Part shown: positions 5,532-32,085 of the stretch, one piece after another
Layout: each line of letters starts with the position of its first letter
Position numbering within the stretch: the first letter of the stretch is position 1
Assembly (NCBI RefSeq): GCF_005484805.1
Contig: NZ_CP039432.1
Coordinates: forward strand, 4,650,001-4,714,000
Origin: Rhodococcus sp. SGAir0479
Lineage (GTDB): Bacteria; Actinomycetota; Actinomycetes; Mycobacteriales; Mycobacteriaceae
DNA: 64,000 nucleotides
Direction: 5' to 3'
Notes under the pieces: generated by a model
The model's input: only the letters and a program-made list of their open reading frames with translations
What the model was told of the DNA's origin: nothing
Databases searched by the model: none
Program-made: the position numbers and the translations under genes

Positions 5532-5534
5532 GGA

Positions 5535-6479
5535 ATGGGCACTGTGACCGAAGCTTCTGCGCTGCAGGGCGGATACAAGCGCGGCGAACTGACCGTGCAC
5601 CACGACCCCGCGATCCTCACGCGGGTGTCGAAGGCGCTGCGCGGAGTGGGCCGCCAGGTCGCGCTGGTCCCGACGATGGGCGCCCTGCACGCCGGCCACC
5701 TGGAGCTGGTCCGGCAGGCGAAGCTGACCGGCGCGGTCGTGATCGTGTCGATCTTCGTCAACCCGCTGCAGTTCGGCGCGGGCGAGGATCTCGACGCCTA
5801 CCCGCGCACGCTCGACGCGGACCTGGAACTGCTCCGCGAGGCCGGTGTCGAGCTGGTGTTCGCGCCGACCGCGTCCGCGATGTACCCGGACGGCCCGCGC
5901 ACCACGGTGCAGCCCGGTCCGCTCGGCGCGGAACTCGAGGGCGGCAGCCGGCCCACGCACTTCGCGGGCATGCTCACGGTCGTCGCGAAGCTGCTGCAGA
6001 TCGCCGCGCCCAACGCCGCGTTCTTCGGCGAGAAGGACTACCAGCAGCTGGCGTTGATCCGGCAGATGGTGCGCGACCTCAACTTCGACGTGCGGATCGT
6101 CGGCGTGCCCACGGTGCGCGAGCAGGACGGCCTGGCGTTGTCGTCGCGCAACCGCTATCTCGACAGCGAGCAGCGGCAGCTGGCGACGGCGCTCTCGGCG
6201 GCACTGGTCGCCGGGGCGCATGCCGCCGCCGGTGGCGCCGAGGCGATCCTGGCGACCGCTCGCGACGTGCTCGCCGCCGTCCCCGGCGTCGAGGTCGACT
6301 ACCTCGAGGTCCGCGGCGTCGATCTGGGGCCGGCACCCGAGCGTGGTGACGGCCGGCTGCTGGTCGCGGCCCGGATCGGCACGACCCGATTGATCGACAA
6401 CGTCGGTGTCGCGGTCGGCACCGGATTCCTCGAACGTGACACCCAGCCGGGCGACCCGGCCGTGGCCGACATCTACTGA
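5535..6479 (+). CDS. panC: Pantothenate synthetase
   Basis: PanC condenses pantoate and beta-alanine with ATP in the cytoplasm. The 314-residue protein carries the HIGH-like ATP motif [14 protein letters not shown], the NPLQFG pantoate-binding loop, [15 protein letters not shown] with the conserved Lys-Asp, and SSRNRYL (KMSKS-like). The order DUF2520-panC-panD-coaX places three coenzyme A genes together. ATG 5535 follows the previous stop by 3 nt; GTG 5544 is a possible internal start. Confidence 0.96.
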
Positions 6480-6511
6480 CCTCAGCTCCACTGCACACCG
6501 AAGGGCCGAAC

Positions 6512-6934
6512 ATGCTGCGCACCATGATGAAGTCGAAGATCCACCGCGCCACCGTCACGCACGCGGACCTGCACTACGTGGGTTCGGTGACCGTCGACCA
6601 GGATCTGATGGAGGCGGCCGACCTGCTCGAGGGCGAGCAGGTCACGATCGTCGACATCGACAACGGCGCACGTCTCGAAACGTACGTGATCACCGGCGAG
6701 CGCGGCTCGGGTGTCATCGGGATCAACGGTGCGGCAGCGCATCTGGTGAACCCGGGCGATCTCGTCATCCTCATCGCCTACGGCGTGATGAACGAGCAGG
6801 AGATCCGCGAGTACGCGCCGCGGGTGGTGTTCGTCGACGGCGACAACAAGCCGGTGGAGCTCGGTTCGGATCCGGCGCACGCGCCCGAGGGTTCCGGTCT
6901 GATCACGCCGCGGATGCTCTCCAGCCTGGTGTAG
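6512..6934 (+). CDS. panD: Aspartate 1-decarboxylase (pyruvoyl enzyme)
   Basis: PanD makes beta-alanine from aspartate for PanC. The 140-residue proenzyme self-cleaves at Gly24-Ser25, visible in [10 protein letters not shown], to create the pyruvoyl cofactor. The conserved Lys9, Tyr58-region [10 protein letters not shown] and INGAAAHL segments are present. The ATG at 6512 gives the family N-terminus [16 protein letters not shown]. It sits 32 nt after panC and 4 nt before coaX, consistent with one operon. Confidence 0.96.
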
Positions 6935-7751: not shown

Positions 7752-7804
7752 CTCGCCGCCGGGCGCCGTCCGCGCGGCGCGGGGTTTCCTCGGCGCGGAT
7801 GTTG

Positions 7805-7820
7805 TGTCACACTGTTCGAC
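7805..7820 (+). promoter_or_regulatory. Possible leaderless promoter before the cysteine leader ORF
   Basis: An extended -10-like TGT-CACACT ends at 7813, exactly 7 nt before GTG 7821. The hexamer has C instead of the first T of TANNNT, and no convincing -35 was seen. The spacing equals that of the better leaderless promoters in this window. Confidence 0.35.
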
Positions 7821-7862
7821 GTGTTCCGTTGCATGAGTGCCCAGGAGTGTTGTCGAGGCTGA
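7821..7862 (+). CDS. Cysteine-rich leader peptide (putative attenuator ORF)
   Basis: A 13-codon ORF, GTG to TGA, encodes VFRCMSAQECCRG with three Cys codons including a TGT-TGT pair (7848-7853) just before the stop. It lies between coaX and the cysteine dioxygenase-like gene. A perfect inverted repeat begins inside the second Cys codon, so a ribosome paused at Cys-Cys would cover the 5' arm. This matches the layout of polycysteine leaderless short ORFs described in mycobacteria as cysteine-responsive attenuators. The peptide itself probably has no function; its translation would be the sensor. Confidence 0.55.
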   Translation: MFRCMSAQECCRG

Positions 7863-7874
7863 CCGCTGCCTCGA
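7853..7874 (+). promoter_or_regulatory. Attenuator-like stem-loop overlapping the leader ORF
   Basis: TCGAGGC (7853-7859) and GCCTCGA (7868-7874) pair perfectly around an 8-nt loop that contains the leader stop codon TGA. A U-rich stretch (AATTTCACTTTTCT) follows, then GGAG and the ATG at 7903. The stem could act as a weak terminator or as a structure controlling access to the downstream ribosome site. Which of the two applies cannot be decided from sequence. Confidence 0.5.
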
Positions 7875-7902
7875 TCAATTTCACTTTTCTGGAGCTCTAC
7901 TC

Positions 7903-8460
7903 ATGCTTTCTGCATATTCTCTCGACGTCCGTGCGTCCGTTTCCGCCGACAGCTCGCTTCCCACGCGCCTGCGGCCCGCCGACCTGCTGCGTATCACCGA
8001 TCAGCGCGCCTCCGACGTCCTCGACGGCCGGTACGACCACCTGCTGCCGTCGGCCTTCCCGACCCGCGACCGCTGGTCCACGCGTCTGTACGCGGACGAC
8101 GACGTCGACGTCTGGTTGATCAGCTGGGTCCCGGACCGGTCCACCGAATTACACGACCACGCAGGATCTTTGGGTGCGCTGACCGTCCTCAGTGGCAACC
8201 TCGCCGAATACCGCTGGAGTGGTGGGGAACTGCGCCGCCGCACGCTCGAGGCGGGCGATCAGGCCGCCTTCCCGCTCGGGTGGGTGCACGACGTCATGCG
8301 CGCTCCCGGACCCGCCACCGGCGCCACCGAACCCACGTTGAGTGTGCACGCGTACTCGCCGCCGCTCGCCGCCATGTCGTTCTACGAGGTCACCGATCAC
8401 GGGGCGCTGCGCCGCACCCGTACCGAGCTGACCGATCTGCCCGAAGGGGGCCTCCAGTGA
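7903..8460 (+). CDS. Cysteine dioxygenase-like cupin
   Basis: This 185-residue cupin belongs to the type I cysteine dioxygenase family, Fe(II) enzymes that oxidise thiols to sulfinates. Iron ligands are His84 and His86 in TELHDHAG and His129 in GWVHDV. The SVHAYSPPL segment provides the His149/Tyr151 pair typical of thiol dioxygenases. ATG 7903 has GGAG 8 nt upstream. It overlaps the rhodanese-like gene by 4 nt (GTGA), so both act in one sulfur pathway. The true substrate could be cysteine, 3-mercaptopropionate or a persulfide, and the motif cannot tell these apart. The Cys leader upstream suggests expression rises when cysteine is scarce. Confidence 0.85.
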   Translation: MLSAYSLDVRASVSADSSLPTRLRPADLLRITDQRASDVLDGRYDHLLPSAFPTRDRWSTRLYADDDVDVWLISWVPDRSTELHDHAGSLGALTVLSGNLAEYRWSGGELRRRTLEAGDQAAFPLGWVHDVMRAPGPATGATEPTLSVHAYSPPLAAMSFYEVTDHGALRRTRTELTDLPEGGLQ

Positions 8461-8879
8461 CCATCGACCAGATGCTCGCCGACGCTCGTTCCCAGCTCGA
8501 CCGCATGTACGTCTTCGAACTGGTCGAGGCGCACCGCCGCGGCGCGATCTTCGTGGACATCCGCCCGCAGGCGCAGCGCGCGCTCGAGGGCACGTTGCCC
8601 GGCGCGCTGGCGATCGAGCGGAACGTGCTCGAGTGGCGGCTCGACCCCACCAGCAGCGCGCACCTGGCCCTGGCCGTCGACCACGACGTCGAGTGGGTGA
8701 TCGTGTGCTCCGAGGGGTACACGTCGAGCCTGGCGGCGGCGTCGCTGCGGCAACTCGGCCTGCACAGGGCCACCGACCTCGTGGGTGGGTACAAGGCGAT
8801 CAAGGCTGCCGGTCTCCTCGGCGCGCTGATGGGGGAGCGGCACTGCACCCGCGAGCTCGCGACGGTGTCCGCGCACTGA
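8457..8879 (+). CDS. Rhodanese-like sulfurtransferase
   Basis: This 140-residue single-domain rhodanese-like protein has the conserved FVDIRPQAQRALEGTLPGALAIERN region and the catalytic cysteine in WVIVCSEGYTSSLAA. The active-site loop CSEGYTS is of the size seen in GlpE/thiosulfate sulfurtransferases. It is translationally coupled to the cysteine dioxygenase-like gene; such pairs or fusions occur in other bacteria and are linked to persulfide or thiosulfate handling. GTG 8457 follows a purine-rich GAAGGGGG. Confidence 0.88.
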   Translation: MTIDQMLADARSQLDRMYVFELVEAHRRGAIFVDIRPQAQRALEGTLPGALAIERNVLEWRLDPTSSAHLALAVDHDVEWVIVCSEGYTSSLAAASLRQLGLHRATDLVGGYKAIKAAGLLGALMGERHCTRELATVSAH

Positions 8880-8911
8880 CCGTCCGCTGGGCGGGAGCCC
8901 TGCCGCGGGTA

Positions 8912-9292
8912 CTAGCCGGGGGTGGGGGCGCGGGGGTCGTCGACCGAATGCAGGTCGAGGGTGCCCTCGGGTTCGGACCAGTTGCCGGCGCTGCGGAGCG
9001 CGGCGACGGCGTCGTCGAACGCGTCCACGAGCCACTGGGCGCGGGATTCGTGGATGGGGGTGATTTCGTCGGGCAGATCGAAGAAGCGGACCATCCACCA
9101 TGCGACGACGTCGGGGTCGTCGCTGAGACCGGCCTCGGTGTTGGTGGCCAGCAGGTATCGGCCGAAGGCGAACTCGACGCGGATGGCGTAGTCGTCGCCG
9201 TGGTTCACGACGTTGGTGGGGCGGTGCGTGGCGGCGGCCAGCGTGGCCAGAGCATCGGCGTATCGCTCGGTGTGCTCTCGTTTGCGGGGCAT
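8912..9292 (-). CDS. Hypothetical protein, 126 aa
   Basis: No family recognised. The product is acidic and soluble, rich in Trp and Asp (VVAWWMVRFFDLPDE, RAQWLVDAFDDAV), without signal peptide or membrane segment. The central sequence YAIRVEFAFGRYLLATNTEAGLSDDP has the regular pattern of a folded globular domain and the codon pattern is coding-like. It starts at ATG 9292 without a clear ribosome site and is convergent with the rhodanese-like gene. Function unknown. Confidence 0.65.
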   Translation of the reverse strand: MPRKREHTERYADALATLAAATHRPTNVVNHGDDYAIRVEFAFGRYLLATNTEAGLSDDPDVVAWWMVRFFDLPDEITPIHESRAQWLVDAFDDAVAALRSAGNWSEPEGTLDLHSVDDPRAPTPG

Positions 9293-17943: not shown

Positions 17944-20496
<2,553 letters not shown>

Positions 20497-20508
20497 GTTC
20501 CACACGAG

Positions 20509-20544
20509 ACGACGCCCCGCGAGCACACGCTCGCGGGGCGTCGT
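20509..20544 (+). terminator. Terminator between convergent clpC1 and kinase gene
   Basis: A perfect 16-bp stem (ACGACGCCCCGCGAGC and complement) with the loop ACAC lies 12 nt after the clpC1 stop. It can serve both converging genes. Confidence 0.8.
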
Positions 20545-20563
20545 CGTGTGCGGGCACCCGGTG

Positions 20564-21208
20564 TCAGCCACCCGGCGACGGGAGCGCGCGGACCGCACAG
20601 GCCCGCCCGTCCGGCTCGGCGTCCGCGGTCACCGTGACGTGCGCGGCGCGGCGGGTCCGGTCGGTGCCGAACAGCGCGGCCTCCTGCCGCGCCCAGCGGT
20701 GCCAGTGCGGCCGGAACATCTCTCCGTCCCGTCGCATCGCCCGATGCATCCGTTCGTCGGGGTCGGCGTCGACGAACACCCGGACCGCGTAGTACTCGCG
20801 GGCCGTCCCGCACGTCGCGCCCGCCCCCTCGACGATCAGGTAGCGGTGCCGACGGACGGCGCGCCACTCCGCGTGGGTGCCGCGGTGCCAGTCGTAGCGG
20901 CGGTAGCGCGGGATCCGCCCGTGCCGGGCAGGATGGAGGACGCCCTGCACCAGTCGCGGAATCGCGGCCGCCAGTCCGTCCCAACCGGGATACAGGTCGT
21001 CCATGCGCACGACGGGCGCGTCGTCCAGTGCCGCGGACAGCTGATCGGCCAGTGTCGACTTCCCGCTGCCCGACGGGCCGTCGATGCCGACGAGGACCGG
21101 CCCGCGTCGTGGGCGCCGACCCCGCCGCCGATACGCGGCCCGGGCCAGTGCGGCGGCCCGGCCCGCGCCCTCGGCGAGCGCCGGAAGCAGCTGATCGTCG
21201 TCGGTCAT
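20564..21208 (-). CDS. P-loop kinase, uridine kinase-like
   Basis: This 214-residue protein has a Walker A motif in VLVGIDGPSGSGKSTLADQL and the fold pattern of the uridine/pantothenate kinase group (VVRMDDLYPGW, YDWHRGTHAEWR, LIVEGAGA). The DDLYPGW segment corresponds to the substrate-side Asp in nucleoside kinases. The substrate is not determinable. ATG 21208 was chosen over GTG 21217 because a -10 TAACGT sits 7 nt upstream, predicting a leaderless message starting at this ATG. Confidence 0.75.
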   Translation of the reverse strand: MTDDDQLLPALAEGAGRAAALARAAYRRRGRRPRRGPVLVGIDGPSGSGKSTLADQLSAALDDAPVVRMDDLYPGWDGLAAAIPRLVQGVLHPARHGRIPRYRRYDWHRGTHAEWRAVRRHRYLIVEGAGATCGTAREYYAVRVFVDADPDERMHRAMRRDGEMFRPHWHRWARQEAALFGTDRTRRAAHVTVTADAEPDGRACAVRALPSPGG

Positions 21209-21215
21209 GGTCAGC

Positions 21216-21221
21216 ACGTTA
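21216..21221 (-). promoter_or_regulatory. -10 element, leaderless kinase transcript
   Basis: On the minus strand TAACGT is 7 nt upstream of ATG 21208 and overlaps the stop codon of the upstream YrhK-like gene. Confidence 0.45.
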
Positions 21222-21845
21222 TGCCAGCCGAGGCGTCGGGGGCTTCATTGTCAGCGCCGCGATCAGGAAACACAGCGCCCCCACCAGTGTGCCGAGATCT
21301 GCGGCCGCGGCGTTCTCCGGGCGATGTGTGTCGGGCACGACCAGCGCGCCGCCCGCCGAGACGCCGAACGCCACCGACCCGATCGTGTTGAGCCACGTGC
21401 TGGTCCAGTTGCGGGCGTGGGGGTCCCACAGTCCGTCGACGTCGGTGGTGGCGACGACGGCGAGGGCGCTCGCCACGAGGAAGCACGCCGATCCGAACAC
21501 GTCGGGTTGCCAGACGAATTCGCGGTGCTCCCCGAGGGACAGGTCGCGAACGAGCGCCGCCCCGGTGCTGACGTTGAACAGCAGCGTGCCGACGAACTGT
21601 GCGAGAGCCGACCACCAGTCGTAGCGGTCCACGACGGTCGTCGCGGTGCCGGGAACCGTGCGTCCGGTCAGGCGCAGTTGGACGAAGGCGGCGCCGGTGA
21701 AGAACAGTGACCCCACGAAGTAGGTGAGGTTGCCGGTCTCACTACCCACGGCCGACGCGTACCCGGGGCACGCGCCCAGCGCGAACAGGGCCGACCCGAT
21801 CACGAAACCGAGCGACTCCCGCCGTGGCCCGAGCTTCTGCCCCAT
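21219..21845 (-). CDS. YrhK-like domain membrane protein
   Basis: This 208-residue membrane protein has about five helices. The segments SLGFVIGSALFALGACPGYA and GNLTYFVGSLFFTGAAFVQLRL form one YrhK-like pair, and WLNTIGSVAFGVSAGGALVV with LGTLVGALCFLIAAL forms a second. YrhK proteins have no known function. It starts at ATG 21845 without a ribosome site but with a TATCGT -10 8 nt upstream. It is divergent from the OsmC gene. Confidence 0.72.
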   Translation of the reverse strand: MGQKLGPRRESLGFVIGSALFALGACPGYASAVGSETGNLTYFVGSLFFTGAAFVQLRLTGRTVPGTATTVVDRYDWWSALAQFVGTLLFNVSTGAALVRDLSLGEHREFVWQPDVFGSACFLVASALAVVATTDVDGLWDPHARNWTSTWLNTIGSVAFGVSAGGALVVPDTHRPENAAAADLGTLVGALCFLIAALTMKPPTPRLA

Positions 21846-21853
21846 GCGACCCC

Positions 21854-21859
21854 ACGATA
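21854..21859 (-). promoter_or_regulatory. -10 element, leaderless YrhK-like transcript
   Basis: On the minus strand TATCGT is 8 nt before ATG 21845, within the 65-bp divergent region shared with the OsmC gene. Confidence 0.4.
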
Positions 21860-21910
21860 GGGGGTAGTTTTCGAGAAGGACGTAGACCGATCGACATGGA
21901 GGATCTGCAC

Positions 21911-22345
21911 ATGCCTACCCGCACTGCGCGCACCGCCTGGAACGGAACACTCGAAAAGGGTTCGGGGCAGGTGGAACTCACGAGCTCGGGCGTCGGTACG
22001 TTCGAGGTGTCGTTTCCCAGGCGGGCCGCCGAGGATGCCGGCGGGACCACCAGCCCCGAGGAACTGATCGCCGCAGCGCACTCGTCCTGCTATGCGATGC
22101 AGTTGTCCGCACTGATCGCCGAGGCGGGCGGAACCCCGCAGAGTCTCGAGATCCGGGCCGACGTCTCGCTGGGTCCGGACGATCCGGGGTTCAAACTCAC
22201 CGGGATCGTGCTCACGGTCCGGGGCGAGGTCGACGGCCTGGACGCCGCGGGGTTCGCCCGTGCCGCCCAGGCCGCCAAGGAGTCCTGCCCGGTGAGCAAG
22301 GCTCTGACCGGCGTCGCGATCACGCTCGACGCCGCGCTCGAGTAG
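21911..22345 (+). CDS. OsmC-family peroxiredoxin
   Basis: This 144-residue OsmC/Ohr-fold protein has the two redox cysteines in AAAHSSCYAMQLS and AAKESCPVSKAL, and the N-terminal TARTAWNGTLEKGSG strand region. OsmC proteins reduce organic hydroperoxides using lipoyl or thiol donors in the cytoplasm. ATG 21911 is supported by GGAGG 8 nt upstream; ATG 21896 overlaps that ribosome site and is rejected. No OhrR-type regulator is adjacent. Confidence 0.93.
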   Translation: MPTRTARTAWNGTLEKGSGQVELTSSGVGTFEVSFPRRAAEDAGGTTSPEELIAAAHSSCYAMQLSALIAEAGGTPQSLEIRADVSLGPDDPGFKLTGIVLTVRGEVDGLDAAGFARAAQAAKESCPVSKALTGVAITLDAALE

Positions 22346-22393
22346 CCCCTGTGCTGAGCGCTCGAACGTGGTTGAGGCGAAGCGTCTTCCGCG

Positions 22394-22726
22394 TCAGCTG
22401 CGTTCGAGCCTCGCCCGGACCTGTTCCATCTTCGCGCGCAGTTCGTCCTGACTGACCAGGCCGCGATCGAGGAACGTGTGCGCGGTGGTCACGGCCGACC
22501 GCGAGTACACCGGGAAGTCCCGGTAGATCGTCTCGCCCAGTTCGTCCTCGGTGTGGCGCCGTTCGAGGTTGTCCCAGGCGCCGCGCAACGACAGGCATTC
22601 GCACGTGGCCTGCATCGCCGATTCCCACGGGTCCGGTTTCCGGTCGACCTCCTCGAGGTCTCCGGCCCTGGTCGCGTCCGGGGGCAGCGTCCGGAGGATG
22701 ACCTCGTAGCCCTGCGTGGCCGTCAT
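22394..22726 (-). CDS. Nitrile hydratase/thiocyanate hydrolase activator-like protein
   Basis: This 110-residue protein resembles the N-terminal beta domain of the enzyme family: ATCECLSLRGAWDNLERRHTEDELGETIYRDFPVYSRSAV parallels the upstream beta gene (TCECLAWRGSW, DLGETQYFGLPYYARW). Cobalt nitrile hydratases and thiocyanate hydrolase need a small beta-like activator (P14K/P15K type) to insert cobalt, and the last gene of such operons is usually this one. ATG 22726 overlaps the alpha/gamma stop as ATGA. It could alternatively be a second structural subunit. Confidence 0.7.
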   Translation of the reverse strand: MTATQGYEVILRTLPPDATRAGDLEEVDRKPDPWESAMQATCECLSLRGAWDNLERRHTEDELGETIYRDFPVYSRSAVTTAHTFLDRGLVSQDELRAKMEQVRARLERS

Positions 22727-23421
22727 TTCGCGCTCCCCGCCGTCGGCGCCTCCGACGCGTCCCAATCGGCGGACGGCAGCGCCACGCCGATCATGGTGTC
22801 CCGGGTGACGATCTTCGCCAGTTGTTCCTCGGACCATCCCTCCGTCCCCTCGGGACGCATGGGCATGACCATGAACCGCGATTTCTGATTGGAATCGTGA
22901 ACGCGCACTTCGACGTCGGACGGGAAGTGCAGGCCGAACTCGGCGAGTACCTCGCGGGGCCGGCGCACCATCCGCCGCCGGTAGTTGGGCGTGCGGTACC
23001 AGTCCGGGGACATGCCGAGCACGGGACGCGGATAGCACGAGCACAGCGTGCACACGATCACGTTGTGCACCTGCGGGGTGTTCTCCAGGACGTAGAAGTA
23101 GGTGTAGTCGCTGGGGGTGCCGGTGCCCGTCGGATCCCGCCAGTCGATGCCGACCTCCTGGCACGTCTCGGTGCCGTTCTCGAGGAGTCGTTTCTTGAAC
23201 TCGGGGTCGGTCCAGGCCTTGGCCACCAGTTTGGATCCGCCGGACGGGCCGATCGACTCGGCCCATTCGGAGAAGCGGCGGTGGTCCTCGGCGGAGAACA
23301 GGCCCTTCTCGATGGCGAGTTCGCGCAGCGCGAGTTCGAGCACCTCGAACTCGCTGATCTCGTCGGAGGCCTCGATGGGGGCGTGCTGTTTGCTGTCCGA
23401 GTGGACGTGGGGTTCGCTCAC
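22723..23421 (-). CDS. Cobalt-site subunit of thiocyanate hydrolase / nitrile hydratase
   Basis: This 232-residue subunit contains the metal-claw motif VCTLCSCYPRP with Cys124, Cys127 and Cys129, the ligands that bind non-corrin Co(III) after oxidation of two of them. Thr between the first two Cys indicates a cobalt rather than an iron enzyme. CSCYPRP, followed by LGMSPDWYRTPNYRRR, resembles the gamma subunit of Thiobacillus thioparus thiocyanate hydrolase more than nitrile hydratases, which usually have CSCTPWP. The split beta genes upstream agree. Thiocyanate hydrolase makes carbonyl sulfide and ammonia from SCN-. GTG 23421 has AGGAAAGG upstream. Confidence 0.85.
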   Translation of the reverse strand: MSEPHVHSDSKQHAPIEASDEISEFEVLELALRELAIEKGLFSAEDHRRFSEWAESIGPSGGSKLVAKAWTDPEFKKRLLENGTETCQEVGIDWRDPTGTGTPSDYTYFYVLENTPQVHNVIVCTLCSCYPRPVLGMSPDWYRTPNYRRRMVRRPREVLAEFGLHFPSDVEVRVHDSNQKSRFMVMPMRPEGTEGWSEEQLAKIVTRDTMIGVALPSADWDASEAPTAGSAK

Positions 23422-23437
23422 TTGCCTGTCACCTTTC

Positions 23438-23728
23438 CTACTCTGCCGCGCGGAGCCAGCCTTCGGCGCATTCGGTTTCGAGGGTGTCGACGTCGTAGCC
23501 GGTGTAGCGAGGCCACAGGTCGGTCTGTTTGAACGAGACGACGTAGAAGGGTTCCTTGCGGCCGGTCTCGAGCTTGTCGTAGGCCTCGTCCTCGGGTATC
23601 ACCCAGTCGGGGCGCAACGCCACCACGGTCCCGGACTGATTACGCACGTAAGCCTGTGTGCGCGTGTGGAAGATGCTGCTCTCGTCCCGGACGACCACCC
23701 GGTCACCGACCTTGAACTTCCCGGTCAT
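23438..23728 (-). CDS. Beta C-domain-like subunit (thiocyanate hydrolase alpha type)
   Basis: This 96-residue SH3-like barrel equals the C-terminal half of nitrile hydratase beta: FKVGDRVVVRDE, HTRTQAYVRNQSGTVVAL and PFYVVSFKQTDLWPRY. The Arg in the YVR motif is the conserved residue that contacts the oxidised cysteine claw in the partner subunit. In thiocyanate hydrolase this domain is a separate alpha subunit, as here. ATG 23728 overlaps the preceding gene as ATGA. It is shorter than the 126-residue Thiobacillus alpha subunit. Confidence 0.82.
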   Translation of the reverse strand: MTGKFKVGDRVVVRDESSIFHTRTQAYVRNQSGTVVALRPDWVIPEDEAYDKLETGRKEPFYVVSFKQTDLWPRYTGYDVDTLETECAEGWLRAAE

Positions 23729-24159
23729 TTCCGTTCCTCCTGGAGACGTGAGCGCACCTCGTCGATCTTCGCGGTGAGCTCGCTGAGCGGGATGAGGCCC
23801 TTGTCGACCATCACCCGAGCGGCCACGGTGACCCATCGTGCGTAGTAGGGGAGGCCGAAGTACTGGGTCTCACCGAGGTCGACCTCGGCCCGTCGGCGCA
23901 TCTCCGCGTTCCACGAGCCGCGCCACGCGAGGCACTCGCACGTGACGTACGTGTTCATCTCCCAGGCCTCCTCCTCCTTCTCGAGGTACTCGACCGGGAG
24001 GGCGGGCTGCCCACCGACGTCGTGGAGGACGTGCCTGAGGACGTCGTACTGGGCGTTGCTGATGGTGTACGGCGAGTCCTGGACGTCGTGCACTGCTGGC
24101 GTGATCTTCGCGAGGCCGTCGGTGAGAGCTTGGAACCGAGCCTGATTCGTGGTGGTCAT
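23725..24159 (-). CDS. Beta N-domain-like subunit (thiocyanate hydrolase beta type)
   Basis: This 144-residue, mostly helical subunit equals the N-terminal half of nitrile hydratase beta. Recognisable parts are YTISNAQYDVLRHVL, the TCECLAWRGSW segment, DLGETQYFGLPYYARWVTVAARVMVDKGLI and a C-terminal helix ELTAKIDEVRSRL. Gene order beta, alpha, gamma, activator matches the scnBAC layout. GGGAG precedes ATG 24159. Only 67 nt separate it from the cbtA stop, suggesting one operon with the cobalt transporter. Confidence 0.8.
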   Translation of the reverse strand: MTTTNQARFQALTDGLAKITPAVHDVQDSPYTISNAQYDVLRHVLHDVGGQPALPVEYLEKEEEAWEMNTYVTCECLAWRGSWNAEMRRRAEVDLGETQYFGLPYYARWVTVAARVMVDKGLIPLSELTAKIDEVRSRLQEERK

Positions 24160-24226
24160 GGAGGTCTCCCTTCCATGGAGGTTCACTGGTTGCCGGTGTT
24201 CTTCCGAAAGGTCGTCCGATTCCCTC

Positions 24227-25045
24227 CTACGGTCGCGTGGTACGCGGCGCGGGCGCTTCGTGGCGACCCGCGCCCGTCTGGGTGAGCGGCACCCGCTGTG
24301 CCCGTTCGGTGAGGAACGCGAACGCCATCCCGAGCACGAGCCACAGCGTCGCCTGCGTGGCCAGCGACGACACCCGGAACTCCCACAGCAGCGTCGCGGG
24401 GAAGGTATCGCCCACCTCGTCCACGGGTGGCAACAGCAGATACCCGACCGCCACGATCGCGACGAAGGTGACGACGCCGGCGGCCAATCGAACCGTCCGG
24501 TATCGCTGTCCGGCAAGAGATCTGAACACCCACGCCGCTGCCGTCACGGCGGCGAGTCCGAGAATCAGCGCGGCGAGCCAGAGCAGCGTCCGCTGGTCGA
24601 TCGTGTCCGGGTCGCCCACCGCGGGGGGATTGGCCGGGTACTTGAAGAACGGCACGGCCTCGACCGCCAGCCATCCGGCAGCCGCGAGCGCGAGCCCGAG
24701 CGCCGTGCCCGGTACGGCCGTGACACGGCGGAGGAAGTGCGCGGCCACGCCGAAGATGGCTCCGACGGCCGTACCTGCGAGTGCGGTCGCGAGGAACAGG
24801 CCCGCGCGTTGACCGTCGCGGCTCACGAGCGGTTCGTCGCCGTCCGCGTGGGAGTGTGCGGGCGTCGCGCCGTCGTGGCCGTGTTCGGCCGCCTCTGTGG
24901 CCGGCGCCGATTCCTCGATCGAGATGGCCGCCGCGACGTGTGGTTCTCCGAGGGTGAAGGCGACCGCGCCGGCCAGCAGGCCGGCGATCAGCCCGGCGAG
25001 GAGACCGCGCACCACCAGATTCGCGAGGGTTCCGGTCAGTGGCAC
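24227..25045 (-). CDS. cbtA: CbtA, cobalt transporter subunit (copy 1)
   Basis: This 272-residue membrane protein has about six helices (LVVRGLLAGLIAGLLAGAVAFTLGEPHV onward). A His/Asp/Glu-rich loop (EHGHDGATPAHSHADGDE, about residues 54-71) may bind the metal, and the family motif KYPANPPAVGDPDTIDQRT is present. CbtA with CbtB forms a predicted cobalt importer, named for control by cobalamin riboswitches. GTG 25045 lies 10 nt inside cbtB. Placing it just upstream of a cobalt enzyme operon supports cobalt supply for that enzyme. Confidence 0.9.
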   Translation of the reverse strand: MPLTGTLANLVVRGLLAGLIAGLLAGAVAFTLGEPHVAAAISIEESAPATEAAEHGHDGATPAHSHADGDEPLVSRDGQRAGLFLATALAGTAVGAIFGVAAHFLRRVTAVPGTALGLALAAAGWLAVEAVPFFKYPANPPAVGDPDTIDQRTLLWLAALILGLAAVTAAAWVFRSLAGQRYRTVRLAAGVVTFVAIVAVGYLLLPPVDEVGDTFPATLLWEFRVSSLATQATLWLVLGMAFAFLTERAQRVPLTQTGAGRHEAPAPRTTRP

Positions 25046-25230
25046 GGGAGCCCCAGCAGGTGTCGGCCGTCATGCATCAGTTCGTGCATGTACATGCCGG
25101 TGCGGGAGACGGCGCCCTGGTCGAAGCCGACCAGGTAGAGGGTGAGCAGAGCAAGGAGTACCGCGCCGACCGCGATCAGCACGGCGCCGGCGGAATCGAT
25201 TGCCCGGCTGGGACTGTGGGCGAGTGTCAT
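25036..25230 (-). CDS. cbtB: CbtB, cobalt transporter small subunit (copy 1)
   Basis: This 64-residue protein has a single transmembrane helix (AVLIAVGAVLLALLTLYLVG) and the CbtB C-terminal metal motif GMYMHELMHDGRHLLGLPCH, rich in His, Met and Cys. AGGAGG lies 5 nt before ATG 25230. It is almost identical in its C-terminal half to the second copy at 28913-29107. Confidence 0.9.
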   Translation of the reverse strand: MTLAHSPSRAIDSAGAVLIAVGAVLLALLTLYLVGFDQGAVSRTGMYMHELMHDGRHLLGLPCH

Positions 25231-25264
25231 GGTTCCTCCTGGGAGGCGCACGAACGTCCGGACC

Positions 25265-25390
25265 GGAGGCGGAGTACGCGCCACGGTCTCGGACTCGGGC
25301 GGCGAAGGGGTCGGACGGCTTCTGTCCTGTCACCCGGCGAGCGACCCGCTCACCGTCGACCGGAAGGCAGCACCGACGCTACTCGGGCGG
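25265..25390 (-). promoter_or_regulatory. Weak cobalamin-riboswitch-like segment before cbtB copy 1
   Basis: Read on the minus strand, GGTGCTGCCTTCCGG and, about 85 nt later, GAGTCCGAGACC resemble the GGTGC-TCCGG and B12-box parts of cobalamin riboswitches. The GCCACTG core, clear in copy 2, is not recognisable. It may be a diverged element or chance similarity. Confidence 0.25.
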
Positions 25391-25576
25391 TGCCGTGGCA
25401 TCGGCGCGATTGTGGCCTTCACACAACGGCGAGGATCCAGACGTCGGGTTCGCTCCCTTCCGGCGGGCGCGGCCGGGATCCGGCCTTCCGCGGCCGCACA
25501 AGCTCGGTCGTTCGCGCAGGTCGCAGACCGTTCTTCGGACAGGGACTCGCATAAGTAACGGGACCGTGATACATCT

Positions 25577-25592
25577 GGTGACCTAGATCACA
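25577..25592 (+). promoter_or_regulatory. CRP/GlxR-like operator
   Basis: GGTGACCTAGATCACA fits the actinobacterial CRP/GlxR consensus TGTGANNTANNTCACA at all fixed positions except the first. It ends 45 nt before the ATG of the adenylate-forming enzyme, so it could activate or repress that gene in response to cAMP. Confidence 0.6.
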
Positions 25593-25637
25593 CTTTTGCG
25601 ACGGTCGGGGCGTCGGATCTCAGAAGGGACCAGGCAT

Positions 25638-27311
25638 ATGGGGAGCCTCAAGATTCACCCGCAGATCCGCATCGACCAGTTCAACAAGACCGGGGCCTGG
25701 ACTCCGGACACCGTCCAGCGATTACTCGCGGACCAGGTCCGCGAGCGAGGTCCGCAGCTCGCGATCGTCGACCCGGTGGACAAGTCCGAATACGTCGACG
25801 CGCTTCCACGGCGGGTCACCTGGGCGGAACTCGACGGGGAGGTCGACCGGCTCGCGGCGATGTTTCTGCAATCCGGAGTGCGCGCCGGGGCGGTGATCGG
25901 TATCCAGCTTCCGAACACCGTGGAGCAGGTGGTCGTCATCCTCGCCTCGTGGCGAGTGGGTGCGATCGTGTCACTGCTGCCGATCGACTCCACCGCGGCG
26001 GACATCGTCGAGGTGTGCAACGAGTCGTGCGCGAGTGCGTTCGTGACCGCAGCCCGCATCGGCGGCAGCCGGGGCGCCGAGCGGGTGATCTCGGTGCGGT
26101 CCCGGATACCCACGCTGCGCACGGTTTTCGGGTACGGCGTCGGTGTGCCCGACGGTGTGGTTCGCATCGGTCACGGTGTGCCCACGCCCGCGGACTCCGC
26201 CGTGGTCGCAGCCCATGTCTCCGAGCATCCGGCCGAACCCGACGACTGCATCGCGATCAGCTGGACCGGTGGGGAGGACCGACCCCTGAAGGGGACCCCG
26301 CGCGCCCACTGCGAGTCCCTGGCCATCGCGCGCGACGTGGTCGATGCGATGGGCCTGCGCGTCGACGACGTGATGCTCAACCCGTTCCCGATGATGACTG
26401 CCGTGGGGGTTGCCGGCGCGCTCCTGCCGTGGCTCGTGGCGGGGTGCGTGCTGGTCCAGCACCAGCCGTCCGACGTCGACGTGTTCCTGCGCCAGATCGC
26501 CGACGAGAAGGTGACCTGCACCGCGGGGCGGCCGTCGGTGCTGTCGGCGGTCGAGCGCCGGGAAGGGCCTGCTGTGGATCTGTCGACCCTCACCCGAATG
26601 GGCATCGAGGGCGGCTTCTCGACCGCACCGTCGGTAGGGCACTGGCGGGAGCGGTACGGCGTCCAGATCGTCAATTTCTTCGGCACGATAGAGGGTGTGA
26701 GCCTGCGATCGGATCCCGAGGTCAGCTCCGTGGAATGGCCGCATTCGCCGCTGTACCCGCGGTCCGGCGACGGACAGGGGACGGTGCTCAAGCTGGTGGA
26801 TCCGCGGACGGGAGCCGAGATCGTCGAGCCGGGGGTCGTGGGCGAGCTGCGGGTCAAGGGGCCCACCGTCTTCTCCGGCTACCTCCACCCCGCGCGCGAC
26901 CGTGATCCGTTCGACGCGGACGGGTTCCTGCTGACGGGGGACCTGTTCGTGATCGACGGCCCCGACAACGGCTATCTGCGTTTCGTCGATCGGGCGGCCG
27001 ACGTCATCCGCCGGGGTGGGTCGCTGGTCGGTTCGGTGGCGCTCGAGGCGCTGGTCGCGGCGCACCCGTCGGTGGCGGAGGTGGCGGTGATCGGTTGCCC
27101 CGACGAGCGCGGCGACGATCGGATCGTGGCGGTCGTGACCTGCAGGCCCGGCACGGCGCTCAGCCTCGAGGAGATCGTGGCGCTTCTCGAAGCCCGCGGT
27201 GTCGACCCGGAGCAGACCCCGCAGCGTCTCGTCATCGCCAAGCGCTTGCCGCGTGATCGGTCCGGCAGGGTTCTCAAGCGGGAGCTGCGGCACCAACTCG
27301 CGCGGGGGTGA
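25638..27311 (+). CDS. Adenylate-forming (acyl-CoA synthetase-like) enzyme
   Basis: This 557-residue member of the AMP-dependent synthetase superfamily probably activates a carboxylic acid. Core motifs are present but altered. The phosphate loop reads SWTGGEDRPLKGTP instead of TSGTTGxPKG, A5 reads NFFGTIEG, and A7 is LLTGDLFVID. A8 is YLRFVDRAADVIRRGG with Asp replacing the usual Gly. The catalytic A10 lysine is kept in RSGRVLKRELR. The N-terminus (IHPQIRIDQFNKTGAWT) recalls cyclohexanecarboxylate-type ligases. Substrate unknown. ATG 25638 was chosen for the AGAAGGGA ribosome site upstream. Confidence 0.82.
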   Translation: MGSLKIHPQIRIDQFNKTGAWTPDTVQRLLADQVRERGPQLAIVDPVDKSEYVDALPRRVTWAELDGEVDRLAAMFLQSGVRAGAVIGIQLPNTVEQVVVILASWRVGAIVSLLPIDSTAADIVEVCNESCASAFVTAARIGGSRGAERVISVRSRIPTLRTVFGYGVGVPDGVVRIGHGVPTPADSAVVAAHVSEHPAEPDDCIAISWTGGEDRPLKGTPRAHCESLAIARDVVDAMGLRVDDVMLNPFPMMTAVGVAGALLPWLVAGCVLVQHQPSDVDVFLRQIADEKVTCTAGRPSVLSAVERREGPAVDLSTLTRMGIEGGFSTAPSVGHWRERYGVQIVNFFGTIEGVSLRSDPEVSSVEWPHSPLYPRSGDGQGTVLKLVDPRTGAEIVEPGVVGELRVKGPTVFSGYLHPARDRDPFDADGFLLTGDLFVIDGPDNGYLRFVDRAADVIRRGGSLVGSVALEALVAAHPSVAEVAVIGCPDERGDDRIVAVVTCRPGTALSLEEIVALLEARGVDPEQTPQRLVIAKRLPRDRSGRVLKRELRHQLARG

Positions 27312-27367
27312 AGTCGCTGCACGGCGGGCGCGGAACACCCCGCGCCTGCCGTGTGTTCGAATGCCTC

Positions 27368-28129
27368 GTGACCATCGAGAGCAACGCCCGTGCCGCCGAC
27401 CAGTCCGGGACTCCCGCGCCCCACGTCGAGATCGAGGTGTGGTCGGATGTCGCCTGCCCGTGGTGTTACATCGGCAAACGCCGGTTCGCGTCCGCGTTGG
27501 CCGCCTTCCCACAGCGGGACCGGGTGGCGGTGGTGTGGCGGGCGTACCAACTCGCGCCGGACACCCCGGTCGGAGCGCGGCGCGGCGAGCTCGAGGTGCT
27601 CGTCGAGCACAAGGGCATGCCGGCCGACCAGGTGCGGCAGATGTTCCGGCACGTCGCGGCCACGGCGGCTGCGGACGGGTTGGTCATGGATTTCGACACG
27701 GTGATCGCGGCCAACACGTTCGACGCGCATCGACTGCTGCACCTGGCAGGGGACCGGCAGGACGCCCTGCTTGAGGCGCTGTTCAGGGCGCACTTCGCGG
27801 ACGGCGCGGTGATCGACGATCGGGTGGTGCTGGCGCAGCTCGCGGCCGGTGTCGGGATGGACGGCGACGAGGTCGCCGCGGCACTCGACGGCGATGCCGG
27901 TGCCGATGCGGTGCACGCCGACCTCGCCGCCGCTCGCAGCCTCGGGGTGACGGGTGTGCCGTTCTTCGTTGCGGATCGGCGCCTGGCGGTGTCCGGCGCG
28001 CAGCCGCAGGAGATCTTCACGGAGCTGCTGCGGCAGGCGGTCGAGCACGCCGACGGCGCGCGGGCGCAGGACGGTGCAGCCCTCGACGCGGACGCCGAGG
28101 GCTGCACCGACGATTCGTGTGCTGTCTGA
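27368..28129 (+). CDS. DsbA-family oxidoreductase, FrnE-like
   Basis: This ~253-residue thioredoxin-fold protein has the active site CPWC in EIEVWSDVACPWCYIGKRRF, the YQLAPDTP and NTFDAHRLLHLA segments, and the cis-Pro loop GVTGVPFFV of FrnE/DsbA proteins. No signal peptide is visible, so it is cytoplasmic, like most FrnE proteins. A C-terminal CTDDSC pair may add redox chemistry. GTG 27368 was chosen; GTG 27308, overlapping the previous stop, would add 20 residues. It converges on cbtA copy 2 with a 1-nt gap. Confidence 0.88.
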   Translation: MTIESNARAADQSGTPAPHVEIEVWSDVACPWCYIGKRRFASALAAFPQRDRVAVVWRAYQLAPDTPVGARRGELEVLVEHKGMPADQVRQMFRHVAATAAADGLVMDFDTVIAANTFDAHRLLHLAGDRQDALLEALFRAHFADGAVIDDRVVLAQLAAGVGMDGDEVAAALDGDAGADAVHADLAAARSLGVTGVPFFVADRRLAVSGAQPQEIFTELLRQAVEHADGARAQDGAALDADAEGCTDDSCAV

Positions 28130-28130
28130 G

Positions 28131-28922
28131 TCAGGCGCGGCGGCCGGCGCGTTCGGTGAGGAACGCGAAGGCCAGTCCGAGCGCGAGCCACACACTCGCC
28201 TGCGTTGCCAGCGACGAGATCCGGAACTGCCACAGCAGGGTGGCCGGGAAGTCCGCGCCCACCTCGTCGATCCCGGGCAGGGCGAGGTAGCCCACCGCGA
28301 CCACGACGAGGAACGCCGCAGTCTGTCCGACCGTGCGAACGGACACGAGGTCCTGGTGGCGCAGGAGTCGTCCCACACCGACGGCCGCGGCTACCGCGAT
28401 CAGACCGAGCAGGACGGCGCCGAGCCACAGCAGTGTCCGCTCGTCGATCGTGTCCGGATCACCGACGGCCGGCGGGTTCGCCGGATACATGAAGAACGGG
28501 ACGGCTTCGATTGCCAGCCAACCACATCCGGCCACGACAGCGGCCAGGGTCGGGCCCGGTAACGCGGTGAACCGGCGCGCGTAGTGCACGACGACCGCGA
28601 AGATCGCCCCGAGCGCGATCCCGGCCAGTGTGGTGGCGAGGAACAGGCCGACGCGCTGTCCGGTGCGGCTGACGAGCGCATCGTCGCCGTGGGTGTGCGC
28701 GTCCTCCGGCGCTGGACCCGTGTGTTCGGCTGGCGCAGAGGCACTCTCGTGAGGGCCCGGATGCGGGGCGGTGGCCGATTCCTCGATCTCGATGGCCGCC
28801 TGCACGTGCGGCTCACCGAGGGTGAAGGCGACCACGCCGCCCGCCAGACCGGCGATCAGTCCGGCCAACAGACCGCGGACGAGAAGTGTTCGGAGGCTTT
28901 CGGAGAGGGTCGTCAGTGGCAC
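28131..28922 (-). CDS. cbtA: CbtA, cobalt transporter subunit (copy 2)
   Basis: This 263-residue paralogue of the protein at 24227-25045 has the same helices, the motif MYPANPPAVGDPDTIDERT and a His-rich loop (HPGPHES, DAHTHGDD). Overall sequence is clearly homologous but diverged in the loops. GTG 28922 lies 10 nt inside cbtB, the same overlap as copy 1, which supports duplication of the whole pair. It is probably controlled by the cobalamin riboswitch upstream of its cbtB. Confidence 0.9.
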   Translation of the reverse strand: MPLTTLSESLRTLLVRGLLAGLIAGLAGGVVAFTLGEPHVQAAIEIEESATAPHPGPHESASAPAEHTGPAPEDAHTHGDDALVSRTGQRVGLFLATTLAGIALGAIFAVVVHYARRFTALPGPTLAAVVAGCGWLAIEAVPFFMYPANPPAVGDPDTIDERTLLWLGAVLLGLIAVAAAVGVGRLLRHQDLVSVRTVGQTAAFLVVVAVGYLALPGIDEVGADFPATLLWQFRISSLATQASVWLALGLAFAFLTERAGRRA

Positions 28923-29107
28923 GGCAGACCCAGCAGGTGCCGACCGTCATGCATCAGTTCGTGCATGTACATGCCACTGCGGGAGACGGCGCCCTGGTCG
29001 AAGCCGACCAGATACAGCGCCAGCATTGCGAGCAGCACCACTGCTGCGGCGACGAGCGCGACCGCGGCCGAGTCGGCCGACCTGTCGGGTGAGAAGACGA
29101 TAGCCAT
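28913..29107 (-). CDS. cbtB: CbtB, cobalt transporter small subunit (copy 2)
   Basis: This 64-residue protein has one transmembrane helix and the C-terminal GMYMHELMHDGRHLLGLPCH. Its last ~30 residues differ from copy 1 at one position (Ser for Thr). AGGAGG precedes ATG 29107 as in copy 1. The 5' untranslated region contains the cobalamin riboswitch. Confidence 0.9.
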   Translation of the reverse strand: MAIVFSPDRSADSAAVALVAAAVVLLAMLALYLVGFDQGAVSRSGMYMHELMHDGRHLLGLPCH

Positions 29108-29144
29108 CGATGCCTCCTGGGATTTCGCGTCCCTGTCGGATCCG

Positions 29145-29285
29145 TGCGATGGCCGAAGTGTCTGGCTCTCGAGGACTGGCCTCGAACACAGTGGCGCGAC
29201 CGCTCCGGAATGGCACCGGATTACGTCGATCCATCGCTTTGTCGAGCGAACTTTGACACCCCGCAGGTCACGGTGTCAATCCCTG
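29145..29285 (-). promoter_or_regulatory. Cobalamin riboswitch
   Basis: Read on the minus strand the region contains GGTGCCATTCCGGAGCGGTC, the core GCCACTGTG (complement of 29189-29195), then a hairpin GAGG-CCAGT-CCTC and the B12-box-like GAGAGCCAGACACTTCGG (complement of 29153-29170). These occur in the order and spacing of actinobacterial cobalamin riboswitches. The cbtB start is about 40 nt further on. High adenosylcobalamin would be expected to reduce cobalt uptake by this copy. Outer boundaries are approximate. Confidence 0.75.
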
Positions 29286-29348: not shown

Positions 29349-29663
29349 TCAGGATTCGGGGCGGGCCGCTACGTCCAGAACCACCTCGAACTCGAGCAGC
29401 GACGCTCCCGAGGCGACCGGCTTGGCGCGCTCGCCGGCGTGCGCTTCGCGGGCGGGACCGCTGGCCCATGCCTGGAACGCCTCGTCGGACTCCCACTGCG
29501 TCACCACGAAGTAGCGGTCCTCGCCCTTGACCGGACGCAGGAGCTGGAATCCGAGGAAGCCGGGGGAGTTCTCGACCGCGTGTGCGCGATTGGCGAACCG
29601 CTTCTCGAGTTCGGGGCCGGCGCCCTCGGGCACCTCGATTGCATTGATCTTCACGACAGCCAT
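29349..29663 (-). CDS. mhuD: MhuD-type heme-degrading monooxygenase
   Basis: This 104-residue ABM-fold protein matches M. tuberculosis MhuD (Rv3592), which breaks down heme to mycobilin and iron. Nearly the whole sequence is recognisable (VVKINAIEVP, ENSPGFLGFQLLRPVKGE, ASLLEFEVVLDV), and the functional residues are at the same numbers: Asn7, Trp66 and His75. ATG 29663 is predicted leaderless. It marks the return to the conserved backbone to the right of the cobalt island. Confidence 0.93.
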   Translation of the reverse strand: MAVVKINAIEVPEGAGPELEKRFANRAHAVENSPGFLGFQLLRPVKGEDRYFVVTQWESDEAFQAWASGPAREAHAGERAKPVASGASLLEFEVVLDVAARPES

Positions 29664-31458: not shown

Positions 31459-32085
31459 ATGCCGAACTCCAACCCGATCTCCGCTTGGAAAGCCCTCAAG
31501 CAGGGTAACGAGCGATTCGTCAGCGGTACCCCGCTGCATCCGAGCCAGGGTGTTGCCGACCGTGCCAAGTTGGTCGACGCCCAGCACCCGACTGCCGTGA
31601 TCTTCGGCTGTGGCGACTCCCGTGTCGCCGCCGAGATCATCTTCGACCAGGGCCTCGGCGACATGTTCGTCGTCCGCACCGCCGGCCACGTGATCGACAG
31701 CGCCGTCCTCGGCTCCATCGAGTACGCCGTCGCGGTCCTCAACGTGCCGCTCGTGGTCGTGTTCGGTCACGACAGCTGCGGCGCCGTCAAGGCCACGCTC
31801 GACGCCCTCGACAACGGTGCCATCCCGGCCGGGTTCATCCGTGACGTCGTCGAGCGCGTCTCGCCCTCGATCCTGATGGGGCGCCGCGAAGGTCTGTCGA
31901 CGGTCGACGAGCTCGAGGGCCGCCACGTCGTCGAGACCGGTTCGCTGCTGATGCAGCGCTCGCGGATCATCTCGGAGGCCGTCGAGGCCGGCAAGTGCGC
32001 CATCGTCGGTGTCACGTACAAGCTCTCGGACGGCGACATCAAGCTGCAGAGCGTCCAGGGTGACGTCGGAGAGCCGGCCGTCTGA
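31459..32085 (+). CDS. canB: Beta-carbonic anhydrase
   Basis: This 208-residue beta-class carbonic anhydrase interconverts CO2 and bicarbonate. Zinc ligands are Cys51 and Asp53 (FGCGDSRV), His104 and Cys107 (GHDSCGAV). It takes the Rv3588c position. Relatives in thiocyanate-degrading Thiobacillus hydrolyse carbonyl sulfide, but no COS-specific residues can be judged here. A CACAAT hexamer 6 nt before ATG 31459 could make it leaderless, although it lacks the first T. Confidence 0.94.
   Translation: MPNSNPISAWKALKQGNERFVSGTPLHPSQGVADRAKLVDAQHPTAVIFGCGDSRVAAEIIFDQGLGDMFVVRTAGHVIDSAVLGSIEYAVAVLNVPLVVVFGHDSCGAVKATLDALDNGAIPAGFIRDVVERVSPSILMGRREGLSTVDELEGRHVVETGSLLMQRSRIISEAVEAGKCAIVGVTYKLSDGDIKLQSVQGDVGEPAV

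Follow-up and report, generated by a model that had tools for sequence, protein, structure and literature searches.

A predicted CbtBA cobalt transporter pair adjoins genes of a thiocyanate hydrolase-family enzyme in Rhodococcus sp. SGAir0479, suggesting a dedicated cobalt supply for an enzyme that does not depend on B12

Thiobacillus thioparus ScnABC with P15K, the activator of that enzyme (PDB 2dd4, 2dd5, 2dxb, 2dxc and 2zzd), is the closest described counterpart of the locus studied here, a six-gene cluster at positions 22394-25230 of a 64,000-nucleotide (nt) stretch of Rhodococcus sp. SGAir0479 (contig NZ_CP039432.1, positions 4,650,001 to 4,714,000; the whole stretch is called the window below). 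The two share separate genes for the two halves of the beta chain, a CTLCSC-YPRP claw in the gamma subunit and an arginine pair in beta. In T. thioparus DSM 505, a hypothetical protein gene follows scnABC and a gene for one cobalt transporter subunit lies upstream, while Thioalkalivibrio carries a different cobalt uptake system, according to one passage on these loci (PMC5328954). The window differs from T. thioparus in that its transporter is CbtBA, its gamma subunit falls in another branch, and a NitT/TauT ABC transporter, cyanase and sulfur-oxidation genes are absent among the flanking genes scanned in the window. A NiCoT cobalt permease has also been described, in an excerpt on Co-type nitrile hydratases, near the genes of those enzymes (PMC7689651). 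That arrangement likewise places a cobalt importer gene close to a claw enzyme, but with another transporter family, a two-subunit enzyme and a YPWP claw. A cobalt transporter beside a thiocyanate hydrolase is already published, and the newer part is the dedicated importer; no title among the open-access papers searched deals with CbtAB next to such enzymes in an actinomycete, although an earlier mention is possible and the passage on Thioalkalivibrio leaves its uptake system unnamed. We propose that the six genes probably form one transcription unit that would encode a cobalt importer together with the enzyme it supplies, a three-subunit Co(III) member of the thiocyanate hydrolase family, and the activator of that enzyme.

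All six genes lie on the minus strand, in the order cbtB, cbtA, beta-N, beta-C, claw subunit and beta-like gene, and each protein exceeds the gathering score of its Pfam family (CbtB, CbtA, NHase_beta_N, NHase_beta_C, NHase_alpha and NHase_beta_N, respectively):

25036-25230, minus strand: cbtB, operon copy; 64 amino acids, with a hydrophobic stretch and C-terminal HELMHDGRHLLGLPCH; PF09489 57.9 bits (gathering 27)
24227-25045, minus strand: cbtA, operon copy; 272 amino acids, GTG start; PF09490 247.9 bits (gathering 30.7)
23725-24159, minus strand: beta subunit, ScnB-like (nitrile hydratase beta N-domain); 144 amino acids; PF21006 65.6 bits; 2dd4_B E 7e-39
23438-23728, minus strand: alpha subunit, ScnA-like (nitrile hydratase beta C-domain); 96 amino acids; PF02211 69.1 bits; 2dd4_A E 5e-17
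22723-23421, minus strand: gamma (claw) subunit, CTLCSC-YPRP; 232 amino acids, GTG start, IVCTLCSCYPRPV; TIGR03887; 2dd4_C E 4e-90
22394-22726, minus strand: activator-like beta paralogue, presumed P15K counterpart; 110 amino acids; PF21006 34.8 bits

The first-pass annotation of this DNA had described a one-directional six-gene cluster at these positions that joins CbtBA to the enzyme genes with gaps of at most 67 nt, and the Pfam matches and junction distances agree with it. The widest gap, between cbtA and beta-N, is 67 nt (24160-24226), and beta-C and gamma are 16 nt apart. It had also counted three ATGA overlaps, two of which exist (beta-N/beta-C and gamma/beta-like); the third junction, cbtB/cbtA, is a 10-nt overlap at the GTG start of cbtA. 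Gene order and spacing are as would be expected for a single transcript. They bear on an alternative that we consider quite improbable, namely that CbtBA is a historical neighbour, left beside the scn genes by a cbt duplication, transcribed separately and not coupled to the enzyme in function. The short gap speaks against it, as does the minus strand of 22250-25650, in which no terminator-like site was detected.

The gamma protein, the sole NHase_alpha match in the genome, passes the NCBI model for thiocyanate hydrolase gamma (TIGR03887, 390.3 bits, cut-off 291.45) and scores below the cut-off of the nitrile hydratase alpha model (TIGR01323, 229.7 bits, cut-off 249.85). The best solved relative of the gamma, beta-N and beta-C proteins is 2dd4, which we take to be the T. 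thioparus thiocyanate hydrolase, with identities over aligned residues of 128/212 (60%), 63/124 (51%) and 41/87 (47%), respectively. The window proteins keep gamma C128, C131, C133 and R136 together with the claw serine, as well as beta R90 and R91; gamma Arg136 and beta Arg90/91 we presume to have functional roles. At the position of the claw arginine of 2dd4_C, 3vyg has a tryptophan, as do the aligned nitrile hydratases, which is consistent with a special role for this arginine; a literature search for a mutant of it returned nothing specific.

We built a gamma tree of 73 rows (70 of the 131 loci rows, the window included, plus three PDB stretches, with one characterised thiocyanate hydrolase among them; the program flagged long branches, L059, L092, L095 and L120 among others). 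A 100/100 branch separates all 52 rows with a YPR claw, 2dd4_C among them, from those with YPW, FPW and other claws. The enzyme had been called thiocyanate hydrolase-like from the letters alone, a call that TIGR03887 and this clade uphold, and placement of the claw subunit among classical nitrile hydratases, for which the tree was a check, did not occur. The locus also departs from a classical two-subunit Co nitrile hydratase in that TIGR01323 is missed, the beta halves are two separate genes as in split thiocyanate hydrolases, giving three enzyme-subunit genes in all, and the claw reads YPRP, not YPWP.

It is nonetheless conceivable, if unlikely, that the three-subunit product of the cluster is a nitrile hydratase whose substrate is a small organic nitrile and which uses thiocyanate little or not at all. 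Its Pfam families and its claw are those of Co nitrile hydratases, 94 of 174 aligned gamma residues are identical to the nitrile hydratase alpha subunit of 4ob1 (presumably from Pseudonocardia thermophila), and the split-beta YPRP relative L092, from the same class, passes the nitrile hydratase model (264.0, cut-off 249.85) and falls below the thiocyanate hydrolase cut-off (227.9 bits, cut-off 291.45). Both model results for the window protein, and a tree that puts it with the thiocyanate hydrolase, argue the other way. By these comparisons the enzyme is a further member of the known thiocyanate hydrolase family, and thiocyanate is fairly likely to be its main substrate.

The YPR clade contains two lines. 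One, type A, which is not well resolved as a clade, comprises the window and actinobacterial loci with a split beta; the other (type B, 100/100) holds the characterised enzyme, proteobacterial loci and actinobacterial loci with fused beta. Several relatives are unusual. L092 (enzyme genes 5244-6549), a possible intermediate between the nitrile hydratase and thiocyanate hydrolase families, is followed some 1.2 kilobases (kb) downstream by a gene for a NicO-type nickel/cobalt permease (7754-8932). We considered L092 as a possible toyocamycin-type enzyme; seven neighbouring frames (short-chain and zinc dehydrogenases, a royal-jelly-type protein, the NicO permease, an aldo/keto reductase, an aldehyde dehydrogenase and a TetR protein) do not suggest a toyocamycin pathway. 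L095, L097, L098 and L099, also members of the class, have CTLCSCYPLRL or CTLCSCYPIRL claws and resemble neither nitrile hydratase nor thiocyanate hydrolase, and L120 and L121 are divergent claw proteins on a long branch (CTLCSCYPHDL) for which no beta partner was recognised in the usual order.

Beta-like activators of Co nitrile hydratases are known, P14K being one, with P15K as the counterpart in thiocyanate hydrolase. In a tree of 53 proteins of the beta-N and beta-like kinds, taken from chosen loci, the 28 genes that precede gamma and the 25 that follow it fall on opposite sides of a 100/97 branch, and the last gene of the window groups with the after-gamma genes of other operons, in agreement with its first description as activator-like. 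Because of this split we regard the gene as an old ScnB paralogue, not a recent copy, and it presumably encodes the activator. A different role, as a second subunit of the beta type that is incorporated into the enzyme itself, seems very improbable to us. Homology to ScnB (2dd4_B, E 1e-12) and identity to the window's beta-N protein at 34 of 85 aligned residues would suit such a subunit; its separation from all sampled beta-N genes, its constant place after gamma and the existence of beta-like activators favour an activator.

The genome carries a second cbtBA pair about 3 kb from the operon copy, and the two pairs have different upstream layouts:

28131-28922, minus strand: second cbtA; PF09490 241.3 bits
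28913-29107, minus strand: second cbtB; 64 amino acids, matching the cbtB profile; its ATG lies within the open frame 28916-29275
29110-29251, minus strand: cobalamin-riboswitch-like leader of the second cbtBA; RF01482 37.0 bits, E 4e-5 (gathering 50)
25409-25427, minus strand: candidate operator GTTGTG-N7-CACAAT, a palindrome about 180 nt before cbtB of the operon
25375-25382, minus strand: conserved block GTAGCGTC on the downstream side of the palindrome, shared by 9 of the 10 upstream regions aligned across the genus

The two CbtA proteins are identical at 164 of 251 aligned residues, and the proximity of the pairs (28131-29107 for the second) means that local duplication could explain why one of them stands beside the scn genes, as the historical-neighbour alternative would have it. 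Within the genus of the window, linkage is regular, which argues against that alternative: cbtA adjoins the enzyme genes in all 10 genomes with a split-type enzyme (in two pieces in G008), and each of the other four genomes has just one cbtA, not adjacent to such genes, three of these genomes having no enzyme match and one a type B enzyme. In a CbtA tree (matches below 100 bits or 180 amino acids excluded, along with L001-L004, L007 and L016 as repeats of others), nine operon copies from the genus, that of the window among them, form a set supported at 99/97, and the second copy of the window sits among unlinked copies of the genus, a weak grouping (82/57) that leaves the unlinked copy of G002 outside. 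The cbtA match is split in two in the operon copy of G008 (L130, 4589-5059) and in the unlinked copy of G003 (G003:C1:5678214-5678961), perhaps through decay or sequencing error. We found no match to a NicO-type permease in the genome; other families of cobalt transporters were not searched.

A cobalamin riboswitch in front is typical of CbtAB. Both window copies resemble this predicted cobalt transporter in pairing Pfam CbtA with CbtB, and the second copy has a cobalamin-like leader; the operon copy, unlike typical CbtAB, has no cobalamin-type leader, adjoins a non-B12 enzyme and misses the NCBIfam cut-offs. The leader of the second copy came from a whole-genome search with the cobalamin family followed by a scan of short stretches, and it also matches RF00174 at 24.2 bits (gathering 31.5), so that both models stay under their curated thresholds. 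At gathering scores, an Rfam scan of the whole window gave no match, nor did an E-value scan of 19500-28500. In 11 of 12 relatives, all but L140, the DNA before the unlinked cbtA matches a cobalamin-riboswitch model, two of the 11 matches being partial. Upstream of the operon copy there was no cobalamin-riboswitch match in the window and none in 8 relatives (G008, a ninth genome with an operon copy, is not among the eight). Most of the cobalamin-like leaders (29110-29251 minus in the window; L135-L146) score below Rfam thresholds, and the leaders of the genus may represent a divergent subtype of the cobalamin riboswitch.

The palindrome belongs to the operon copy. GTTGTGN7CACAAY has one exact match in the genome, at 25409-25427, and with one mismatch allowed 13 matches on both strands together, versus 49 for a reversed control pattern. 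An exact search of 166 loci gave 19 matches, all of them in stretches upstream of operon copies in the window genus, and 9 of 10 loci of the genus carry the palindrome within two mismatches, in DNA that otherwise aligns poorly among them. Since these loci are close kin, this conservation does not amount to nine independent events. Outside the genus we found it at three mycobacterial loci, with two mismatches each; 31 of 2220 shuffled upstream regions matched. A cobalt-sensing ArsR-type regulator of nitrile hydratase is described for Rhodococcus rhodochrous in one part of a published account (PMC7689651). By analogy, that sensor is a possible model for a regulator that would bind the palindrome, and the GTAGCGTC block could be part of a promoter. 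An operon copy without the riboswitch-like leader and with a palindrome of its own is not what CbtBA as a historical neighbour would lead one to expect.

We then counted cbt genes up to 4.8 kb from gamma, or to the end of the flank where that was shorter, at 124 loci (7 duplicates removed). Type A was taken as YPR-claw loci with unfused beta, minus the outliers L059 and L092 and eight proteobacterial or Myxococcota loci (n=55, part of them in the tree). Same-strand cbtA and cbtB occur at 22 of these, same-strand cbtB alone at 4, and cbt genes on the opposite strand only at 3. Eight type B loci, all proteobacterial or Myxococcota, have separate beta genes, and at five of them a cbt gene is weakly matched some 4 kb downstream; CbtA is confirmed by Pfam at L061, as is CbtB at L052, the latter lying outside the counted distance. 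Neither of the two YPR outliers has a nearby cbt gene, and 19 loci with other claws include five with cbt on the same strand and two with cbt on the opposite strand. The cbt genes lie upstream of the enzyme genes in the window genus and Rhodococcus, and downstream in Nonomuraea, in Dactylosporangium and at loci with other claw enzymes within the family, where CbtA forms a branch (99/96) well apart from that of the window genus and Rhodococcus (99/96). Placement of cbt on either side of the enzyme genes, next to other claws and with CbtA proteins from separate branches, points to more than one recruitment and is hard to reconcile with CbtBA as a historical neighbour; favouring a mere neighbour, no cbt gene was seen near the Nocardia and fused-beta loci examined.

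At 10 of the 55 type A loci (L005, L006, L008-L011, L013, L018, L026 and L034), a cbtB without a cbtA of its own stands directly beside the enzyme genes. In nine of these, all Rhodococcus and including L008 and L034 of the R. jostii or R. opacus group, a cbtBA pair is present as well, further upstream (about 120 nt away in L005), and in L026 (Mycobacterium) cbtB follows the enzyme genes, with no cbtA in the flank examined. The C-terminal HExxHDxRH...PCH is intact in each of the extra CbtB proteins that were aligned (L005, L006, L008, L009, L013 and L026). A broader idea, possible but in our view doubtful, is that CbtB is a cobalt-handling membrane partner that thiocyanate hydrolase-type operons have repeatedly recruited, even in the absence of CbtA, and that CbtB would hand cobalt to the activator. 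On this idea the full CbtBA pair of the genus would have escaped regulation by B12 and become part of a unit for a cobalt enzyme that has an operator of its own.

Under the single-unit reading, which these comparisons lead us to prefer, CbtB and CbtA would import Co2+, and the beta-like activator would help insert the metal into gamma at the CTLCSC claw, where the cysteines would become oxidised. From thiocyanate, or from another small nitrile, the alpha-beta-gamma enzyme would then release carbonyl sulfide and ammonia by hydrolysis, the ammonia providing nitrogen for the cell. The operon cbtBA would be free of feedback by vitamin B12 and answer to its own upstream control site, and the second cbtBA, which keeps a B12-riboswitch-like leader, would serve B12; the importer of the operon thus appears, by its setting, dedicated to a non-B12 cobalt enzyme. 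Carbonyl sulfide could in turn be hydrolysed by a beta-carbonic anhydrase encoded elsewhere in the genome (L134), which matches Rv1284 at E 3e-86 and the carbonyl sulfide hydrolase 3vqj at E 7e-37 over 106 residues. A beta-carbonic anhydrase gene lies about 6 kb from the operon (31594-32037, plus strand) beside an HhH-GPD (MutY-like) gene, an adjacency that, as in mycobacteria, is probably the ordinary gene order of the group.

Several observations weigh against this reading. The operon copy misses the NCBIfam cut-offs (CbtB 26.3 against 64.4, CbtA 43 against 182.9), in models that are themselves graded 'hypothetical equivalog', and no sigma-70-like promoter was detected on either strand of 22250-25650. 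Only 2 of 12 leader regions reach the gathering score, and the weakest match has an E-value of 0.09. G010 lacks the palindrome, and its operon cbtA is its only cbtA, so that there the operon pair must serve any B12 need, contrary to a strict division of labour. No cbt gene was found within 4.8 kb on either strand at 26 of the 55 type A loci, and none near the fused-beta loci (0/40). For the enzyme, the gamma subunits of the window and of the characterised thiocyanate hydrolase belong to different branches of the clade, and type A is not bracketed by tested enzymes because the characterised one falls in type B; nor is the claw arginine alone diagnostic, since L092, despite its YPRP claw, scores above the nitrile hydratase cut-off.

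The enzyme is widespread. A scan of genome contigs confirmed 545 relatives, any member of the wider family counting, of which 80 were kept; they include many Rhodococcus, Nocardia and Mycobacterium loci. NHase_alpha matches occur in 11 of 14 genomes of the window genus (one, G012, locus L131, being type B) and in 42 of 393 genomes of the class, 38 of them above the cut-off. An earlier impression that such an operon is unusual in a mycolic-acid actinomycete does not survive these numbers. Both beta halves are in one frame at 42 loci (two duplicates still included), which, where titled, are mostly mycobacterial, the others being in the family, with one in the window genus; unlike the window, these fused-type loci have no nearby cbt. 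The fused-beta, two-subunit relatives of thiocyanate hydrolase are L058, L060, L062-L075, L077-L081, L100-L119 and L131. Actinobacteria are also well represented among nitrile hydratases and thiocyanate hydrolases in a published gene tree, as part of that article describes (PMC10098168), so the enzyme itself is no surprise, its relatives being common and already in that tree. Mycobacterium smegmatis MSMEG_6266/6267, annotated as thiocyanate hydrolase beta and gamma, belong by annotation to the same family as the window enzyme. Excerpts of two reports give these annotated beta and gamma genes as up 3.68- and 3.42-fold under nitrogen limitation (PMC4617892) and, for a PII mutant, as up 2.37- and 2.35-fold (PMC11001197). 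By analogy, this induction suggests nitrogen supply as a role.

The wider surroundings had been summarised as lying between clpC1 and mhuD. Genes of both kinds do flank the region, a ClpC gene at 17944-20496 and an ABM-domain protein gene of the mhuD kind at 29349-29663 (minus strand; below the NCBIfam heme-oxygenase cut-offs), but several others intervene on each side: kinase-like, YrhK-like and OsmC-type genes towards ClpC, and an acyl-CoA ligase gene, a DsbA-like gene and the second cbtBA towards the mhuD-like gene. The YrhK-like gene (21219-21845, minus strand) is downstream of the operon, between the kinase-like and OsmC-type peroxiredoxin genes.

In the curated NCBI models, CbtA and CbtB still carry the label 'proposed' as cobalt transporter subunits. 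Their repeated placement beside a non-B12 cobalt enzyme, together with the contrast between leaders, provides independent support for cobalt as the metal, and a genome with two cbtBA copies offers a system in which the metal can be tested; the features most worth following are the additional CbtB genes and the enzyme-linked CbtBA copy that has no B12 leader. With relatives of the enzyme common in the actinomycetes sampled, these data also bear on which bacteria may convert thiocyanate to carbonyl sulfide.

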